DNA of 64,000 nt from Spirosoma lacussanchae (lineage in GTDB: Bacteria; Bacteroidota; Bacteroidia; Cytophagales; Spirosomataceae): the NCBI RefSeq assembly GCF_005870035.1, contig NZ_SWJG01000009.1:62001-126000 (forward strand), written 5' to 3'. Positions 3,803 to 13,049 of this stretch are shown here, in pieces. Under the pieces are notes generated by a model that was not told where the DNA came from, searched no databases, and saw only the letters and a list, made by a program, of their open reading frames with translations. Position numbers and translations under genes: made by a program. Each line of letters begins with the position of its first letter. Position 1 is the first letter of the stretch.

Positions 3803-4753
3803 TTACCTGACTTCGAACCGGCTGTCGCCGATCCGGAAGCCTTCTGCGTATAACTCAACCGTATAGGTGCCTGGTTTGTAGGGATTGTCCCGCCGAAACA
3901 GCATAGCCACCCGCTGGTCGTTGTTTTCGTACGATACCGTCTGGCGCATGCTGTACCCAATCTCGCGCCCGTCGGTAAAGAGGATGCCTCCGATGCCGCT
4001 TTCGCTAATTACGGCGCCGTTGGCATCCAGAATCCGTAAATAAATGTCCTTGTTGTTCTGCACCGCCAGCGGGTTGGTCGGCAGGATAAAGGCTACCTTG
4101 AGCCGGTCGATGCGCGAGGCCCGGTAGGGACTATCCCGGCGTTCGCGGCCGTTGGAAGCCACCGCCGATACGTCAATATTGACCGCTTTCAGGGCCGACG
4201 CCAGGGTGACCTTGTCTTTCAGGTCGGCATTCTGTAGCGAGTAATCGACTACGGCCCGGGCCAGTACCTCCTTGTCGTGTTTCAGCCCCTGGTTTTCGAC
4301 CAGAATGCTTTCTTTCTCCTGCTCCAGCGACAAGGCTCGTTCGGCCAATGACCCGTTTTCGGCCCGCAGCTTCCGCAGGGTCAGCTCGTTTTGCGCCAGG
4401 AAGTTCTGGTAATCTCTGATTTTCAGGGTGTACTGCTGGCTGGAAAAGCTCAGGTCAGATTTCAGGCGTTTCTTGTCGGTCTCGAGCTGCCGTTTGATCC
4501 GTTCGAGTTCGGCAACGCTGCCACCCAACTGCCGGACTTCGGTAATTTTAGCGTCGAGTACGCCCGAAATCGAATCCAGCTTGGTCTGCGTGGCAGCAAA
4601 CTGCTCTACTTTCAGGGTCAGCAGTTTCTGTACTTCCAGGGTTTCGTTGCGCGACCCGATGAACAGGTAGGCCATCAGCGCCAGCACCCCGACCAGGGCG
4701 CCGATGGTCATGGTCTGTATACCCTGTTTGTCTGTTGTTGCCTGCACCTCCAT
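3803..4753 (-). CDS. Membrane-anchored coiled-coil protein of unknown function
   Basis: A 316-aa protein: a short cytoplasmic N-terminus, one transmembrane helix (about residues 16-33), a long heptad-rich coiled coil (about 40-180, with many Leu/Glu/Lys/Gln), and a C-terminal beta-domain (RLKVAFILPTNPLAVQNNKD to the end) that looks like a ligand or partner-binding sandwich. No enzyme motif is visible. The ATG at 4753 is preferred: the upstream in-frame TTG at 4786 lies inside a minus-7-like element. Four TTAAG boxes precede its promoter and the RR/HK pair lies immediately upstream on the same strand, so it is the best candidate target of that two-component system. Confidence 0.8.
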   Translation of the reverse strand: MEVQATTDKQGIQTMTIGALVGVLALMAYLFIGSRNETLEVQKLLTLKVEQFAATQTKLDSISGVLDAKITEVRQLGGSVAELERIKRQLETDKKRLKSDLSFSSQQYTLKIRDYQNFLAQNELTLRKLRAENGSLAERALSLEQEKESILVENQGLKHDKEVLARAVVDYSLQNADLKDKVTLASALKAVNIDVSAVASNGRERRDSPYRASRIDRLKVAFILPTNPLAVQNNKDIYLRILDANGAVISESGIGGILFTDGREIGYSMRQTVSYENNDQRVAMLFRRDNPYKPGTYTVELYAEGFRIGDSRFEVR

Positions 4754-4778
4754 ATCGTTGTTGTTCACGGTTCGGCTA

Positions 4779-4786
4779 CAAAGCAA
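4779..4786 (-). promoter_or_regulatory. Minus-7-like element (TTGCTTTG) of the coiled-coil protein gene
   Basis: On the minus strand 4786-4779 reads TTGCTTTG, one mismatch from TAnnTTTG, ending 25 nt before the ATG at 4753. The TTAAG boxes end about 10 bp upstream of it, the position expected for an activator touching RNA polymerase. Confidence 0.45.
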
Positions 4787-4796
4787 CGGCGACCAA

Positions 4797-4834
4797 CTTA
4801 AGCACGACTTAAGCTCACCTTAAATTTACCTTAA
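4797..4834 (-). promoter_or_regulatory. Four TTAAG direct repeats at exact 11-bp period (likely response-regulator site)
   Basis: On the minus strand, TTAAG occurs four times with exactly 6 nt between copies (CTTAA on the plus strand at 4797, 4808, 4819 and 4830). Tandem direct repeats spaced 11 bp apart, about one helical turn, are the known geometry of DNA bound by OmpR/PhoB-family response regulators. An OmpR-type regulator is encoded at 6213-6890. The first box overlaps the stop codon of the histidine kinase gene, and the array faces the gene at 3803-4753. Confidence 0.7.
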
Positions 4835-6213
4835 AATGCCGCCAGGCTGGGCAGAGTCAGGGTAAAGGTGGTCCCCTGGGGTGTCGACTGTACCGCTATG
4901 TCGCCCCGGTGGAGCTGGGTTACCTGCGCCACAACGGCCAGCCCGACACCATGCCCTTTGCTCGACTGTGCGGTTGCATTCCCCCGAAAAAAGGGCTGAA
5001 AAATATACGGCAGGTCGGCGGGTGGGATTGGTATGCCTTCGTTGAAAACCGACAGGACGATGGTTCCGCGCCGGGTTTTGAAATCGACGGCGGCCGTTCG
5101 GCTGGGCGAAAATTTGCAGGCGTTCTCGATAAGGTTCATCAGCAGCACTTTCAGGGCCGCCCGGTTTCCCTGGGTAATCAGGTCGTCTTCTTCGTCGGGG
5201 AAATCGGTAAACGTAAGTTGAATGGTGTAGTCATCGTGCCAGGCCTGGAGCTGCTTTTTGGTTTCCCAGAGCAGTTCATCCATCCGTACCGGCTCAAACG
5301 GCATGGTTTCGGCCTGCAGCGACGTGTTGGCCAGCTCCAGCAGGGTATTGGTCAGCTGGCTCAGCGCGCGGGTATCTTCCTGCAGCGAGCGCAGCGTCTG
5401 TTCATAAGCTTCGGGATTGCGTTTCTGGATGAGCGCCACGTCGATCTGCGAATTGATCTTGGTCAGCGGGTTTTTCAGCTCGTGCGATACGTTGGCAATA
5501 AACATTTTCTGCGTATGCAGGGCCTGCTCGATGCGGTCGAGGAGCTGGTTGAAGGTGGTGACGAGTACCCCGATTTCGTCGGAGCGGTTGGGGTGCTCGA
5601 CGCGCCGGGTTACGTTGGCCGGAAAAATGGTGTTGACCTGCTGAACAATACTCGACATCGGGGCCAGCGCCCGGTCGGCGAACAGCCAGCCCGATATACC
5701 CAGCAGCAGAATAGCCGCCAGCATCATAATGATCAGGATCTTCTGCAGGTCGTTGAGCGCGTCCTGCCCGGTCTGGTCGACCCCGCTCACGATGACCCAG
5801 TTGGTGCTTTTGCCGGAGGTCAGATGGATAGCGACTACCTGGTATTCGTTTTTGCGCAGATACAGCGTCTGAGCGGTCGAGTCGAGCTGCGCCACAAACT
5901 GCTGGTGGAACTGGACGTTGGCCGGATTGGTAGAAAACAGGATCTCTTTGGTCTGGTCGTTGTAGACCGAAATGTTTTCGTTGAGCAGGGGTTCCTTGTC
6001 GGCCGCGTCGATGAGCCGCAGCACGGTGCTGTCGGTCTGCTGCAAATCGAACAGCAGGGTGGTGGTCGTGATGGCGCGGTCCTGCAGTCGCTTGTAAAAC
6101 CGTTTTTCGAGATAGAGCTTGCTGAATAAGTAAACGCCGAGCGAGAACAGGAGCAAAATGCCTGTCACCAGAAAAACGAACTGGTAGGTGAGCCGGGTAC
6201 GGATATTGATCAT
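4831..6213 (-). CDS. Sensor histidine kinase with HAMP domain
   Basis: A 460-aa inner-membrane sensor. It has TM1 at about 10-32, a periplasmic sensor loop of roughly 120 residues, TM2 at about 158-178, a HAMP linker, a HisKA domain with NVSHELKNPL (phospho-accepting His), and a HATPase_c domain with the N-box NLIENACKFS and the glycine box GHGVGLAV. The usual DxGxGI box reads FNEGIPI, so the Asp is replaced by Asn. The architecture matches CusS-like kinases, but the signal is unknown. The start is ATG 6213 (TGATG overlap with the regulator's stop) or GTG 6216. It is translationally coupled to the response regulator. Confidence 0.93.
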   Translation of the reverse strand: MINIRTRLTYQFVFLVTGILLLFSLGVYLFSKLYLEKRFYKRLQDRAITTTTLLFDLQQTDSTVLRLIDAADKEPLLNENISVYNDQTKEILFSTNPANVQFHQQFVAQLDSTAQTLYLRKNEYQVVAIHLTSGKSTNWVIVSGVDQTGQDALNDLQKILIIMMLAAILLLGISGWLFADRALAPMSSIVQQVNTIFPANVTRRVEHPNRSDEIGVLVTTFNQLLDRIEQALHTQKMFIANVSHELKNPLTKINSQIDVALIQKRNPEAYEQTLRSLQEDTRALSQLTNTLLELANTSLQAETMPFEPVRMDELLWETKKQLQAWHDDYTIQLTFTDFPDEEDDLITQGNRAALKVLLMNLIENACKFSPSRTAAVDFKTRRGTIVLSVFNEGIPIPPADLPYIFQPFFRGNATAQSSKGHGVGLAVVAQVTQLHRGDIAVQSTPQGTTFTLTLPSLAAF

Positions 6214-6890
6214 CACACTAACTTTAGGACATACCCCATCCCAATTTGCGTATGGAGTAACTTAGGCTCAAAGTCCCGGTCAATTTTCTTCCGCAGGAAG
6301 TTGATATATACTTCAATGATGTTGGTGCCGGTATCGAAGGTCAGGTCCCAGAGTTTTTCGGCGAGTTCTACCTTGGAGATGACCCGCCCCTGATGGCGCA
6401 GGAAGTACTCGAGCAGCTGAAATTCCTTGGCCGTCAGCGTAATTTCGGTGCCCGCCCGAACCACTGTTTTTGTGTCCGGATTCAGCTCCAGATCGGCAAT
6501 GCGGAGCAGGTTCGTGCTGGGTGTCAGGCTGTGGGATCGGCGGGTCAGGGCCCTGACCCGGGCCATTAGCTCCCGAAACTCGAAAGGTTTGATCAGGTAG
6601 TCGTCCGCACCGGCGTCGAGGCCCACGATCTTGTCGTCGGTGGTGCCGAGGGCGGTGAGCATCAGAACAGGCGTCTGTACGCCGGCCTGCCGGAGTTTGC
6701 GACACAGGTCGAGTCCGTTCATGCCCGGTAAGATAATGTCGGAGATAATCAGCGCATACGGCTCCCGGCTGGCCAGCTGAAAGCCCATCGTGCCGTCGTA
6801 GGCTATGTCGACATCCCACTGGTGCTCTTCCAGTCCCTGTTTAATGCTCTGCACGGTTTTGACCTCATCTTCGATCAACAGGATTCTCAT
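6213..6890 (-). CDS. OmpR/PhoB-family response regulator
   Basis: A 225-aa two-domain regulator. The receiver domain (about 1-118) has the acidic pocket EDE at 7-9, the phospho-acceptor Asp in ISDIILPGMNG, and the Lys in LIKPFEF. A winged-helix Trans_reg_C domain (about 128-222) contains ELNPDTKTVVRAG, LTAKEFQLLEYF and INFLRKKID. It overlaps the kinase gene at its 3-prime end. The most likely target visible here is the 11-bp-period TTAAG array at 4797-4834. Such pairs commonly answer metal or envelope stress, but the inducer is not deducible. Confidence 0.93.
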   Translation of the reverse strand: MRILLIEDEVKTVQSIKQGLEEHQWDVDIAYDGTMGFQLASREPYALIISDIILPGMNGLDLCRKLRQAGVQTPVLMLTALGTTDDKIVGLDAGADDYLIKPFEFRELMARVRALTRRSHSLTPSTNLLRIADLELNPDTKTVVRAGTEITLTAKEFQLLEYFLRHQGRVISKVELAEKLWDLTFDTGTNIIEVYINFLRKKIDRDFEPKLLHTQIGMGYVLKLV

Positions 6891-7238: not shown

Positions 7239-7829
7239 ATGAAACCTTCAGCCTTACCGGAAGACTATGACCTCATCGTTGCGATTCAGGCGGGTGATGC
7301 CGCTGCGTTTCAGACGCTGTATCGCAAGTACTGGCGCCCTCTGTTCAACGTCAGCTACCAGGCCACCCGCCATACCGACGATGCCAAGGATCTGGTTCAG
7401 GAGCTGTTTGCCGATATCTGGCAAAACCGGGCGGCTGTGAAGCCCGACACGTTTTCTGCCGCTTACCTCTACGCTACCCTTCGCCACAAGCTGCTCGACC
7501 GCATTCGTAAACAGGCGGTACGCCAGCAGTACGTATCACGCATTGCGGCTACCACCACCGATCACGACAATTCGACCGAAGCGGCACTCCAGTCGGATGC
7601 TTTCCTGGAGCATCTGCAACGCGAACTAGTCAAGCTGCCGGAACGATGCCGGTTAATTTTTCAACTCAGCCGGTTTGACGATCTTTCTGTCGATGAGATT
7701 GCCGGACAGCTCCGGTTGTCGCCCCAAACGGTTAAGAACCAGCTCACGAAGGCGCTGTTCCGGCTCCGAACCAGCCTGCATGAATACGCGACCTGGGCCG
7801 GGGTTCTGGTGATGGGGTATTGGTGGTGA
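7239..7829 (+). CDS. ECF-type RNA polymerase sigma factor (FecI-like)
   Basis: A 196-aa sigma-70 family member with region 2 (LYRKYWRPLFNVSYQ through DLVQELFADIWQ) and region 4 (LPERCRLIFQLSRFDDLS through SPQTVKNQLTKALFRLR), and no region 1 or 3. It is followed by FecR, an STN-domain SusC and a SusD-like gene, the standard trans-envelope signalling order: ligand at the outer-membrane porin releases the sigma factor via FecR. The start at 7239 (MKPSALPEDYD) is chosen because of the promoter. ATG 7227 is possible. Confidence 0.92.
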   Translation: MKPSALPEDYDLIVAIQAGDAAAFQTLYRKYWRPLFNVSYQATRHTDDAKDLVQELFADIWQNRAAVKPDTFSAAYLYATLRHKLLDRIRKQAVRQQYVSRIAATTTDHDNSTEAALQSDAFLEHLQRELVKLPERCRLIFQLSRFDDLSVDEIAGQLRLSPQTVKNQLTKALFRLRTSLHEYATWAGVLVMGYWW

Positions 7830-8014
7830 ATCTTTTCCTGATTGTCTTTCAGACTTAAATTCAGTTGATCAGGGGCTATCATAGGCCGTAAACTGATAAC
7901 TCAATCAACATGCCGCGCCCCTGGGCTTTATGGGTGTCGGTCGGCGGTGGCTGGCAACATACCACCCATCCAGGGTTTTGCGTCCGTGTAAGCAGCGTCC
8001 CACAACCATTTCCC

Positions 8015-8125
8015 CCATCGTCCCGTAGGGACGCAACAGCGCAGCGTCGGTAGCCAGGGTTGGTAGGTGAGAATTTATTTTCCATCGTCCCGTAGGGACG
8101 CAACAGCGCAGCGTCGGTAGCCAGG
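8015..8125. repeat. Two copies of a 44-bp REP-like intergenic repeat
   Basis: Copies at 8015-8058 and 8082-8125 look identical over 44 bp and are separated by 23 bp. Each contains the perfect hairpin CGTCCC-GTA-GGGACG (8019-8033 and 8086-8100) followed by ACGC...GCGT. The similarity continues imperfectly after each copy (ttggtag). This is the look of a dispersed palindromic intergenic element, not of a gene. Confidence 0.7.
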
Positions 8126-8336
8126 CGTTGGTAGAATATGTCAACAACAAACGCGTCGACAACAAACGGCCCCCTGGCATCGGGTTCGGGGTGATCGGCG
8201 TCCCGACGATACGCATCGGCTGGGTCTCTCGATTGCGCAGACCTCCAGCTGACGACCCCCGTCAAAAAAAACTAAAAAATTTTGCTGATCCGATAGTACC
8301 AAACTCCGGCTTATACGAATACCTGTTAACAAGCAT

Positions 8337-8351
8337 CGATACGACGTATCG
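8337..8351. promoter_or_regulatory. Perfect palindrome CGATACG-A-CGTATCG before fecR
   Basis: Seven-bp arms around one central A end 10 nt before the ATG at 8362. It could be a DNA operator for a dimeric protein or an mRNA hairpin touching the start region. No direct evidence distinguishes these. Confidence 0.4.
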
Positions 8352-8361
8352 TACCAGGCTG

Positions 8362-9426
8362 ATGAATCAGGAAGAACGGGAACGGCACATTCGGGATTAC
8401 CTCGACGGGAAAATTACCCCGCAGGGGAAAGCGCTCTTCGACGAGTGGACCGACCGACTGGCGCAGGATACGCGGTTTATCGACTCGCTCAGCCCCGCCC
8501 AGGCCAGCCGCTTCGAAGACGATATGTGGGAGGCCGTGCGGCAGCAGGCTGGCCTGCCCGATAACCCCGTAGACCCGGCTCTACCGACTACGCCGTTCCG
8601 GTCGGTTTTCACGAACCCGGAGCAACCCAGCTCCAACCGGTTCACGGCCGCACTACGCTACGGACTGGCCGCATCGGTAGCCCTGCTGCTGCTGGCTGGG
8701 TATCTCGTATGGCTCGGAAAACCGGCCGGTAATCCGCTGGCCAGCGCATCTTCATCGGCGCCCGTGACCTACCGGGAGGTGGTAGCACCTACCGGGCAGC
8801 GACTATCGGTAACGCTGCCCGACGGCTCAAAAATTTACCTGAACGCCGAAAGCAAACTACAGTACCCGGAGACGCTGACGGGACCAACGCGACAGGTCTT
8901 TCTGGAAGGCGAAGGCTTTTTTGAGATAGCCCACAACCCCGCACAACCTTTCGTCGTGGCCACCCCCCGGCTGACCACTACCGTAAAAGGAACCACCTTT
9001 AACGTAAATGCCTATGCCGATGAATCGGTGGCCGAAGTGACGGTGCTGACGGGAAAAGTAGAAGTCAGCACGACCGGACGTCGGCAGGCACCACGGCTGC
9101 TGATACCCGGTCAGCGCGTCACGTACCGGCCCGACCGGGAAACACTTACGCAGACAACGCTGGCTGATCCGCAGCTGGCTACAGCCTGGCGCACCGGCAC
9201 GTTGGTATTCCGGCGCACACCGATGGCCGATATTGTTCGACAACTCAGCCGACAGTACGGGGTTCGGGTTCGGCTGGCCACGCCCGCGCTGGCGACCTGT
9301 ACCGTAGTGGGTACGTTTAACCGGGCCAGCCTCGATGATGTACTTGCCGTCTTGTGTGGCTCCATTGGGGCCACCTATCAAAATCAGGGAAAGGAGGTGA
9401 TTATAGAGGGCAATGGCTGCCCGTAG
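8362..9426 (+). CDS. FecR-type anti-sigma factor with DUF4974 domain
   Basis: A 354-aa single-pass inner-membrane protein. The cytoplasmic N-terminal region starts MNQEERERHIRDYLDG, the TM helix is YGLAASVALLLLAGYLVWL, the FecR domain includes GQRLSVTLPDGSKIYLNAESK and VKGTTFNVNAY, and the C-terminal DUF4974 domain includes RRTPMADIVRQLSRQYGV. The family holds an ECF sigma factor until the STN domain of the outer-membrane porin signals. An ORF extends upstream to 8128, but that part is repeat-derived, so ATG 8362 is chosen. It sits between sigma and SusC genes. Confidence 0.92.
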   Translation: MNQEERERHIRDYLDGKITPQGKALFDEWTDRLAQDTRFIDSLSPAQASRFEDDMWEAVRQQAGLPDNPVDPALPTTPFRSVFTNPEQPSSNRFTAALRYGLAASVALLLLAGYLVWLGKPAGNPLASASSSAPVTYREVVAPTGQRLSVTLPDGSKIYLNAESKLQYPETLTGPTRQVFLEGEGFFEIAHNPAQPFVVATPRLTTTVKGTTFNVNAYADESVAEVTVLTGKVEVSTTGRRQAPRLLIPGQRVTYRPDRETLTQTTLADPQLATAWRTGTLVFRRTPMADIVRQLSRQYGVRVRLATPALATCTVVGTFNRASLDDVLAVLCGSIGATYQNQGKEVIIEGNGCP

Positions 9427-9584
9427 CGCGGCCGGTTTCCCTCACAAAAAGGGCCAGATGTGTTCGCACCACACCTGACCCCCGCGAAAACAATCTTCCT
9501 GGCTGTTGACTCTCCCGCCAGGGGAGAGCCGGGTGTCGCACAGTGCCCGAAAGACTATTTTCTCAACTTAACTCGTACAAACCT

Positions 9585-12500
9585 ATGCAAAAATTCCTAC
9601 GCTGCTGTTCGCACCGGCAAAACGTATGGCGTTGCTTTTCGCTTCCTTTGCTTTGTCTGCTAACGGTTTCGCTGGCTCAGGCCAGTCTCACCTTCGGGCA
9701 GGAACTACTTCAGAGCCGGGTTTCCCTATCGGTTCGTAACGCTGCGCTCGGGTCGGTGCTGACGCAGCTCGAAAGCCAGTCCAATCTGAAATTTGTGTAT
9801 GCCGGTAACCTGATCGGCGACCAAGACCGGGTCAGCGTGTCGGTACAGAACCAGCCGCTGAGCCAGGTGCTCGACCAGCTGCTGAAACCCCGGCAACTTC
9901 AGTACACGCTCGCTAAAAACAACCAGGTCATCATCCGGCGCGGCACGGCGCAACCCCAGGCTACCGTAACCGGCCAGGTCACCGACGCCCAAACCGGCGA
10001 AGGCCTGCCGGGGGTTAACGTACTGCTTCGGGGAGCGGCCAGCCGCGGTACTACCACCGATGTGAACGGGCGTTATTCACTCAGCGTGCCGGATGGGACC
10101 GCCGAGCTGACGTTTTCGTTTGTCGGTTACCTGCCGCAGACCGTAACGATTGGCAGTCGTTCAGTGGTGAACATTCGCCTGGCCGTCGATGCGCGAAATC
10201 TGAACGAAGTGGTTGTGACGGCGCTGGGTATCAAACGCGAAGAAAAAGCGCTGGGCTACTCGACCCAGAAGCTCGACGGCTCGGCCGTAACCGATGCGCC
10301 CGCCAACAGTGTCGTCAACGCCCTGTCGGGGAAGGTGGCGGGGCTGAACCTGACCAAAACCGACGGACCCATGGGCAGCAGCCGCGTCACCCTGCGTGGC
10401 GAAAGCATCCTGGATCTGAACTCGCCCGGTGCGCTGATCGTGGTCGATGGCGAGCCGATCAATACGGGCTTCCAGGGCGTGGGCCATGGCGCTTACCTGG
10501 GTGGCGATTCGCCGGTCGACTTCGGGAGCGCCCTGACCGATATTGACCCGAACAACATCGAATCCATCAACGTGCTGAAAGGGCCGGCGGCTTCGGCGCT
10601 CTACGGCTCGCGGGCGGGTAACGGCGCCATCATTATTACCACCAAAAGCGGCAACCGGGATCAGAAAGGCATCGGGGTTACGCTGAACAGCTACATCAGC
10701 ATCGACGACATCAACCGCTGGCCCGACTACCAGTACGAATACGGACAGGGCACCGCTGGTCAGAATTACTATTCGTACGGCACCACCGCCGACGGTCCCG
10801 GCACCCAAAGTACCAGCTCGGCCTGGGGCCCCCGCTTCGACGGGCAGTCATTCTACCAGTACAACTCGCCCCGCGACGCCAGCGGGAATTTTACCGCCCG
10901 CACGCCCTGGGTCCCTTACGAAAACAACCGCCGGGACTTTTTCCGCAAGGGCGTGACGCTGTCTAATAACGTCTCGATCAGCAACAACGGCGAAAAAGGC
11001 ACCACGCGGCTCAGTATCTCGCACCTCAAAAACGACTGGATTCTGCCCAATACCGGCTACCAGCGGATCAATATTGGGTTCTCCAACCAGACGCAGGTCT
11101 CGCGGAAACTGTCGGTCAACGCCAAGATCAACTATTACAACAAGTTCAGCGATAATCTGCCCACGACCGGCTACAACAACCAGTCGATCATGTACTTCCT
11201 GGCGTTCCAGAACCCGAACATTAACCTGGACTGGTACAAGCCGTACTGGCTGCCCGGCCGCGAAGGTGTAGAGCAGAATCACCCGTTTAGTTCGCTGATC
11301 GACAATCCGTACCTGATTTCGTACGAGATGCTCAACAAGTCGAACCGGCACAATATCACGGGCAATGTATCGGCTACCTACAACATCGTCAGGAACCTGG
11401 ATCTGACGCTGCATGGCGGCCTGGACGCGGGCTACGAATTCCGGTCGCAGCAGCGGCCCAAAAACACCCAGAAGTTTCAGGAAGGCATGTACCGCCAGCA
11501 AAATGTCTTCAACGTGGAGACGAATACCGATTTCCTGCTGCGCTACAAACTGCAACCTACCGCCGACTTTCAGGTGACGGCCAACGCGGGCGGCAACATC
11601 CTGATTCAGTCGCAGAAGTTTACCAACCAGCTGGCCGACCGGCTCGTTATTCCGGGCGTGTACAACCTGGCTAACAGCGAACAACTGCCGCTGACCCGTA
11701 GCGACCAGGCCGAGAAGCGCATCAACAGCCTGTATGGATTCGTGAATCTGGCCTACAAGAACCTGGCGTTCCTCGACATCACGGGCCGTAACGACTGGAG
11801 CAGTACCCTGCCCCAACAGAACAACTCGTTCTTTTATCCATCGGCTACGCTGAGCCTGATTGCGTCAGACATGGTAACGATGCCCGCCTGGATTAGCTAC
11901 GCCAAGTTCAGGGGCGCCGTTGCCAGTGTAGGGTATGACGCCCGACTGGGTACCTATAACCTGGAGAAAGTGTACGAGCCAGGCGTATTTCCGGGTGAGC
12001 TGGAGAACCCCAACATCATTGCCAACCCCAACCTGCGCCCCCAGCGCAACAACTCGGTAGAGGTCGGAACTGAATGGCGCCTGCTGAAAAACCGGCTCTC
12101 GTTCGATCTGACCCTGTATCGGCAACTCACGGTCGACCAGATTCTGTACGCGCCGGTCGAGTACGCGTCGGGCTACAACTCGTCGCTGATCAACATGGGT
12201 AAGGTGGTCAACAAGGGTGTGGAGCTGACTCTGACGGGTAGCCCCCTCAAAAGTCCGCGTGGCCTGACCTGGGACATTACGCTGAACTGGGCCATGAACC
12301 GCAACCGGGTGCAGGAATTGAACAACGGCACGGGCAGCGTTGTGCTGGCGCGCTACGTCGGCAGCCGCGTAACGGTAGAAGCCCGTGAAGGACAGCCCCT
12401 TGGCGAAATCTACGGGCTGGGCTTCCGGCGCGCGCCGGATGGGCAGATCGTACACGACAGAAACGGCTACCCGCTGCTGACCGAGCAGTTCATCAATATG

Positions 12501-13049
12501 GGCAATGCAACGCCGAAGTGGCGGGGTGGGCTGGCCAATAATTTCCGGTACCGGGGCTGGAGCCTGTCGGTGCTGATCGACCGGCAGCAGGGCGGTAAGG
12601 TCTACTCGCTGACCAACTCGGTGCTGGGCGAGCAGGGTAAAATCAAGGCCACGCTGCCGGGGCGGTACGACGGCATCATCGGGCAGGGTGTAACCCAGGC
12701 CAGCGACGGTTCCTACGTGCCCAATACGACCAAAGCGACCAACATCGTAACCTATTACAGTAAGATCTACGGGCGCGACAACGTGGAGGCCAATGTCTTC
12801 GATGCCACCTTTACCAAACTGCGGGAGGTTCGGCTGGCCTATGCGTTTCCGGCCAAGCTGCTCGGCAAGTCATTCCTGCGGGGCGCCAGCATCGGCGTGT
12901 ACGGGCGTGATCTGTTTAACTGGACGGCCTTCCCGGCTTTCGACCCCGAAACATCGACCCTCGACAACTCGACTATTACGCCGGGCCTCGAAATCGCCCA
13001 GTTTCCGTCGACCCGTACCATGGGCGCTAACCTGACTATTTCATTCTGA
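9585..13049 (+). CDS. SusC/RagA family TonB-linked outer-membrane protein with STN domain
   Basis: A 1154-aa TonB-dependent transporter. It has a signal peptide (LPLLCLLTVSLAQA), an STN/secretin-N signalling domain (about 42-115, from SRVSLSVRNAALGSVLTQLE), a carboxypeptidase-regulatory-like domain (ATVTGQVTDAQTGEGLPGVN), a plug with the SusC signature LNEVVVTALGIKREEKALGY, and a 22-strand barrel ending in an aromatic residue (TISF). The STN domain is what couples transport to the adjacent FecI/FecR pair. ATG 9585 is preferred over the upstream GTG at 9543 because it gives a normal signal peptide. Substrate unknown. The next genes encode its SusD partner and a phosphoesterase. Confidence 0.95.
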   Translation: MQKFLRCCSHRQNVWRCFSLPLLCLLTVSLAQASLTFGQELLQSRVSLSVRNAALGSVLTQLESQSNLKFVYAGNLIGDQDRVSVSVQNQPLSQVLDQLLKPRQLQYTLAKNNQVIIRRGTAQPQATVTGQVTDAQTGEGLPGVNVLLRGAASRGTTTDVNGRYSLSVPDGTAELTFSFVGYLPQTVTIGSRSVVNIRLAVDARNLNEVVVTALGIKREEKALGYSTQKLDGSAVTDAPANSVVNALSGKVAGLNLTKTDGPMGSSRVTLRGESILDLNSPGALIVVDGEPINTGFQGVGHGAYLGGDSPVDFGSALTDIDPNNIESINVLKGPAASALYGSRAGNGAIIITTKSGNRDQKGIGVTLNSYISIDDINRWPDYQYEYGQGTAGQNYYSYGTTADGPGTQSTSSAWGPRFDGQSFYQYNSPRDASGNFTARTPWVPYENNRRDFFRKGVTLSNNVSISNNGEKGTTRLSISHLKNDWILPNTGYQRINIGFSNQTQVSRKLSVNAKINYYNKFSDNLPTTGYNNQSIMYFLAFQNPNINLDWYKPYWLPGREGVEQNHPFSSLIDNPYLISYEMLNKSNRHNITGNVSATYNIVRNLDLTLHGGLDAGYEFRSQQRPKNTQKFQEGMYRQQNVFNVETNTDFLLRYKLQPTADFQVTANAGGNILIQSQKFTNQLADRLVIPGVYNLANSEQLPLTRSDQAEKRINSLYGFVNLAYKNLAFLDITGRNDWSSTLPQQNNSFFYPSATLSLIASDMVTMPAWISYAKFRGAVASVGYDARLGTYNLEKVYEPGVFPGELENPNIIANPNLRPQRNNSVEVGTEWRLLKNRLSFDLTLYRQLTVDQILYAPVEYASGYNSSLINMGKVVNKGVELTLTGSPLKSPRGLTWDITLNWAMNRNRVQELNNGTGSVVLARYVGSRVTVEAREGQPLGEIYGLGFRRAPDGQIVHDRNGYPLLTEQFINMGNATPKWRGGLANNFRYRGWSLSVLIDRQQGGKVYSLTNSVLGEQGKIKATLPGRYDGIIGQGVTQASDGSYVPNTTKATNIVTYYSKIYGRDNVEANVFDATFTKLREVRLAYAFPAKLLGKSFLRGASIGVYGRDLFNWTAFPAFDPETSTLDNSTITPGLEIAQFPSTRTMGANLTISF

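Follow-up and report, generated by a model that had tools for sequence, protein, structure and literature searches.

A conserved four-box TTAAG array as the probable operator of a coiled-coil membrane protein gene in Spirosoma lacussanchae

Upstream of a gene for a coiled-coil membrane protein in Spirosoma lacussanchae, the minus strand carries four TTAAG boxes with a period of exactly 11 bp (positions 4797-4834 of the window, i.e. of the whole stretch of 64,000 nucleotides that was analysed). From comparison of sequences we consider it very probable that this array is an activator operator of the coiled-coil promoter, serving the adjacent OmpR/PhoB-family response regulator. The four boxes would be bound by this regulator, and their occupancy would activate the coiled-coil gene. 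The reading as an OmpR/PhoB-type operator had been proposed in an earlier note on this DNA, and the wider promoter grammar described below, TTAA-(N7-TTAA)3-N14/15-TTTG, is new. We infer binding by the regulator, its oligomeric state and activation, and likewise an envelope- or metal-type signal.

The array and the genes around it

The features of the locus are collected in Table 1. As the earlier note had described, the last of the four boxes with their 6-nt spacers ends about 10 bp before an element resembling the -7 element and 44 bp from ATG 4753. The positions bear this out, with exactly 10 nt from the last TTAAG to TTGCTTTG (4786-4779) and 43 nt between the G of that box and the A of the start codon. 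In the window, TTAAG-N6-TTAAG occurred four times, always at the array and once as its plus-strand reading; dinucleotide shuffles of the window contained 0.08 such pairs on average, and 0 of 100 reached four. Across the 6.33-Mb genome nine matches were detected, i.e. the four at the array and five isolated pairs, and the array was the sole site of the three-box pattern. By mononucleotide expectation, about 2e-6 occurrences of four boxes are due to chance in the whole genome, and none of 200,000 mononucleotide-shuffled versions of the local 80 bp contained even three.

Table 1 Features of the locus in the window
Feature	Position	Strand	Basis or remark
Operator array (probable), four boxes	4834-4830, 4823-4819, 4812-4808, 4801-4797	minus	6-nt spacers
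-7-like promoter element TTGCTTTG (compare TAnnTTTG)	4779..4786	minus	TTTG register, 61/62 loci
Coiled-coil protein, 316 aa, target gene (probable)	3803..4753	minus	orthologue searches; structure model
Endonuclease/exonuclease/phosphatase-family protein, 388 aa	2586..3752	minus	Pfam PF03372
Sensor histidine kinase (HAMP, HisKA, HATPase_c)	4831..6216	minus	domain models
OmpR/PhoB-family response regulator (Response_reg, Trans_reg_C)	6213..6890	minus	recognition helix IIEVYINFLRKKI

Since the first box shares bases with the stop codon of the kinase (TAA 4833-4831), the array might be viewed as a by-product, either of the C-terminal codons of the kinase, of an RNA structure or terminator, or of a chance low-complexity stretch. 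We regard this as extremely improbable. Chance is excluded by the shuffles. RNA structure was rejected as a cause of the array, since the fold z-score is only -0.81, and so was an Rfam family, none being matched at gathering scores. No terminator or sigma-70-type site was found at the array by a scan that does not cover Bacteroidota promoters. Finally, in G003, G008, G022 and G032 the end of the kinase match lies 177-339 bp from the coiled-coil gene, and the array is still present in the same register to TTTG. Its retention where the kinase ends far upstream argues against a constraint from the kinase reading frame, which was therefore rejected as well.

The coiled-coil protein belongs to no Pfam or NCBIfam family and has no useful sequence match in PDB. 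In a low-confidence structure model (pLDDT 67, pTM 0.36), a predicted N-terminal membrane helix is followed by long helices and a C-terminal beta-sandwich, whose weak matches to Ig-like domains were given no weight. The nearest named match is from S. sordidisoli (98%). A search of 118 genomes from the order gave three with a match to the protein at E <= 1e-70, all within the family, and one of these (G065, 41%) is paralogue-like. A phosphatase-family gene was detected within 1.5 kb downstream of the coiled-coil gene in 32 of 34 orthologous loci, and also in L041-L043; for this reason the two genes likely form a two-gene transcription unit. No phosphatase-family match was present within 1.5 kb downstream at L075 and L077 (G077 and G052, both of one genus). 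A ferritin-family gene lies downstream of the module on the same strand (1501-2037, minus). Divergently from the regulator gene, the region 7239-13049 (plus) encodes an ECF sigma factor, a FecR-like protein and a TonB-dependent receptor with an STN domain.

Conservation of the array and its register to the promoter

We looked for orthologues of the coiled-coil gene among 36 genomes of the genus and 200 of the family. All listed matches of the family search with E <= 2e-80 were taken (34 + 20 + 8, i.e. 62 loci), and weaker ones (2.4e-77 and up) were treated as paralogues and only sampled. The 62 loci come from 11 genera of the family, with protein identities as low as 44%, and four boxes with the 11-bp period were present in every one of them. 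The pattern used required TTAA in boxes 1-3 and TTAA or CTAA in box 4, with CTAA permitted also in box 1 for the last eight loci; it matched each of the first 54 loci (52 unique sequences), for which the mean information was 1.98 bits in the boxes, 1.02 in the spacers and 0.53 in the 12-nt 5' flank. In three loci the fourth box is CTAA instead of TTAA. Arrays of three or more boxes were absent from the last 600 bp examined in all 20 sampled loci of paralogous coiled-coil genes (36-44% identity).

The sequence TTTG follows the TTAA of the fourth box after 15 nt in 61 of 62 loci (53/54 in the first batches and 8/8 in the rest), the sole exception being L074 with TTTA. The distance from the array to ATG was 27-68 nt among the 34 loci counted, with 41-44 nt in 24 of those, and by eye it appeared to be well over 100 nt in some distant loci (for example L146). 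As the distances to ATG and to the kinase vary, it is the -7-like element to which the register of the array is fixed. The earlier note had named random placement or non-conservation as observations that would speak against its reading, and neither of them was seen.

Several individual loci should be mentioned here. The coiled-coil gene at G004:C1:3106223-3107169 and the kinase at G032:C1:2155234-2156602 each matched in two overlapping pieces, as if frame-shifted, and the array was kept in both cases. A record titled Flavobacterium sp. SUN052 (L043) contains the coiled-coil gene (67%) as well as the array; since this gene was otherwise seen here only in the family of the window, the name of the record may be wrong.

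In Flavobacterium psychrophilum, promoters carry TAnnTTTG at -12 to -5 (PMC9723704). If TTTG takes the same position here, transcription would start near 4774. With such a start, the array would span the region from about -60 to -23 and so overlie the site of the -33 element. This overlap with the core promoter would also be expected if the regulator were a repressor whose occupancy blocks the polymerase, an explanation which we consider unlikely. The TTTG register is fixed in 61 of the 62 loci, and TTGCTTTG is devoid of the consensus A; -7 elements without this base are common among activator-dependent promoters. Furthermore, CiaR, bound at similar spacing, acts as an activator (PMC3091779).

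The adjacent regulator and the wider promoter grammar

Within the genus, an orthologue of the coiled-coil gene (at least 54% identity) was present in 24 of 36 genomes. Orthologues of the regulator (79-100% identity) were found in the same 24 genomes and were adjacent in all of them, while the other 12 contained only regulator paralogues of at most 63% identity or, in one incomplete genome, no match. This co-occurrence (24/24 vs 0/12) corresponds to a Fisher p of 8e-10 with shared ancestry ignored, and it has to be kept in mind that clustered genes travel together whatever their regulation. Completeness is only 71-84% for three of the 12 genomes that lack the module; among the 32 genomes that are at least 90% complete, the split is 23 vs 9. 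Kinase orthologues followed the same 24/36 pattern (at least 54% vs at most 39% identity). At more distant loci, regulator and kinase both adjoin the coiled-coil gene in 19 of 20 cases (L074-L083 and L267-L274 are left out of the adjacency counts). The exception is G080, which retains the array and an adjacent kinase; its regulator (70%) is encoded elsewhere on that contig, at a distance of about 40 kb.

The recognition helix of the regulator (Table 1) was placed by comparison with CiaR. Wherever the 43 orthologues are aligned over it, the surrounding region, WD.TFDTGTN.IEVY.NFLRKK, does not vary. Even three boxes were absent from the 600 bp upstream of the regulator gene in all 43 orthologues, so that the absence of an array from this position, reported in the earlier note, is right for the window and extends to 43 of 43 orthologues. 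Autoregulation through an operator of this type was thus rejected, and, judged from these upstream regions, the regulator-kinase pair itself is not under a four-box operator.

Arrays of this type were not restricted to coiled-coil promoters. In the genus, TTAA-(N7-TTAA)3-N14/15-TTTG was matched 100 times, in 33 of the 36 genomes; the reversed pattern, used as a control, had 0 matches. Fifteen of the matches have 14 nt before TTTG, two arrays match on both strands, and 21 matches are coiled-coil promoters. Two four-box matches were found in the genome of the window, the same two being recovered by the three-box form with TTTG: the coiled-coil array, and G000:C20:181025-181080 (locus L184, near 11045). 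The latter lies upstream of outer-membrane efflux, membrane-fusion and RND genes; behind these, on the same strand, come a paralogue of the regulator (57%) and its kinase.

The remaining 79 matches were sampled through 40 hand-chosen regions of up to 15 kb, which contain 46 of them; genomes already sampled were left out. By tblastn, the gene immediately after the array encodes an RND protein in 15 of the 46, an efflux outer-membrane protein in 10 and a regulator in 8, which makes 33 altogether. Eight more precede genes of about 400 aa, the one tested being a CusB/HlyD-type membrane-fusion protein. The rest consists of two reverse readings of an RND array, two matches before unlabelled genes and one with no gene of at least 90 aa. 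RND genes, regulators and kinases of this type were present in 21, 22 and 20 of the 40 array regions, respectively; the corresponding counts for 20 control regions placed 500 kb away were 1, 3 and 4 (Fisher p 2e-4 for RND genes and 0.005 for regulators, many regions being orthologous and thus not independent). In 18 of the 40 array regions there was no regulator within the stretch fetched. The first ATG follows TTTG after about 26-43 nt in 30 of 45 sampled matches, and the conserved letters of the spacers are particular to each target family of the TTAA arrays.

Class-wide, the full grammar was detected in 20 of 396 genomes and the control in 2. Sixteen of those 20 genomes lie in other orders, and the full grammar was found in none of the 14 genomes of the order's other families within the same set. 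TTTG at 14-15 nt is missing from some four-box TTAA arrays of the genus, for example before a SulP-type transporter (L186; Pfam) and, by translation reading only, before TonB-receptor-like (L195) and prophage-like (L190) genes. At L185 (5072-5205), as well as at L217, L219, L227 and L237, a pair of four-box arrays separated by about 100 bp points towards divergently transcribed genes, one for an efflux outer-membrane protein and the other for a regulator of about 226 aa, which suggests autoregulation in a paralogous system. A different, AT-rich three-box TTAAG array recurs at L011, L028, L039, L014, L015, L023 and L037; at L028, L039, L014, L015 and L037 it is found near sigma-factor-like and FecR-like genes (translation reading only).

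The abundance of related arrays raises the question of which regulator uses the one in the window. The TTAA-type operator might be used mainly by a different, paralogous OmpR-family regulator, or several regulators might share the array. Such arrays (TTAA-N14/15-TTTG) reach up to 6 per genome in the genus, more than half of the sampled regions around other arrays (22/40) contain a regulator of the adjacent type, and the tested 57-58% paralogues, which are located near other TTAA arrays, have a nearly identical recognition region. Nevertheless, it is the close orthologues of the adjacent regulator that exactly track the coiled-coil gene and the array in the genus, and the spacer letters conserved within coiled-coil promoters are unlike those of RND-type arrays. 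We therefore find a paralogous user rather improbable and retain the adjacent regulator as the probable ligand of the array.

The idea of the earlier note that the TTAAG array provides a motif for a regulon search can be kept in part. In this genome, arrays of three or four full TTAAG boxes occur nowhere else, but the TTAA core is not private to the locus. Because the TTAA/TTTG grammar also precedes RND-efflux and paralogous regulator genes, a search with TTAA only would mix paralogous regulators. The TTAA word is probably common to a regulator subfamily, and the spacers perhaps give specificity. In our estimate the balance is even as to whether a Bacteroidota OmpR/PhoB subfamily reads a common grammar in which the array replaces the -33 element and the spacers separate parallel systems, namely the coiled-coil/phosphatase module, RND efflux operons and the regulators' own genes.

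Two-component operators of Bacteroidota seem to be little mapped, and no TTAA operator of this kind in the phylum was found in those parts of the open-access literature that were searched. The operator proposed here is defined almost to the base by conservation and is tied to a likely regulator and an uncharacterised membrane protein. The wider grammar that it points to is shared with RND-efflux genes and lends itself to searches in every genome of the group. If true, the shared grammar would allow the targets of many uncharacterised two-component systems to be read from sequence.

Comparison with known two-component operators

The best-scoring NCBIfam models of both regulator and kinase are those of the CopR/CusR/CzcR heavy-metal two-component systems (TIGR01387 and TIGR01386), and in the genus the same type of array precedes RND-efflux genes. 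On the other hand, the proteins of the window stay below the curated cut-offs (250.9 bits vs 279.2 and 186.6 vs 292.55), and the neighbours are the coiled-coil and phosphatase-family genes in place of an adjacent efflux or copper resistance operon, the neighbouring target being no efflux pump. The operators differ as well: those of AgrR, CopR and PcoR are inverted repeats, in the case of AgrR ATTACA in a 6-4-6 arrangement, supplemented at some operators by in-phase direct half-sites (PMC7380067). A metal signal is thus suggested by the genes that such arrays accompany, and we put it no more strongly, because the metal-family cut-offs are missed and the characterised metal regulators use inverted repeats.

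Direct-repeat operators of the OmpR/PhoB family consist of tandem repeats about one helical turn apart at a promoter, and direct repeats with an 11-bp period were found in all 62 loci. Their regulators combine a receiver with a winged-helix domain, as does the protein encoded by the adjacent regulator gene. In Acinetobacter, PmrA binds TTTAAGNNNNNTTTAAG (PMC10927774); the PmrA/BasR box of Salmonella is YTTAAK. As in the array, these are direct repeats of the OmpR/PhoB family, and in Acinetobacter the same word recurs at 11 bp (PMC10927774). They consist of two half-sites, and the regulator is distant (BasR chains at E of about 1e-31). The array of the window shares with operators of the CiaR/PmrA type a TTAAG every 11 bp, its family-wide core being TTAA with a variable fifth base, and differs from their two boxes per operator in having four in 62 of 62 loci.

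CiaR of streptococci requires TTTAAG-N5-TTTAAG, and in the search settings given for it the second repeat lies 10 nt from the -10 element (PMC3091779). Its operator has two boxes as opposed to four and is combined with a TATAAT promoter, not with one of the Bacteroidota -7 type; the phylum and the target are also different. Nonetheless, the word and the 11-bp period are the same, the CiaR recognition helix VVEVYVSKVRKKL resembles that of the adjacent regulator (IIEVYINFLRKKI), and the 10 nt between the second repeat and -10 (PMC3091779) are paralleled here by 10 nt between the last TTAAG and the -7 octamer.
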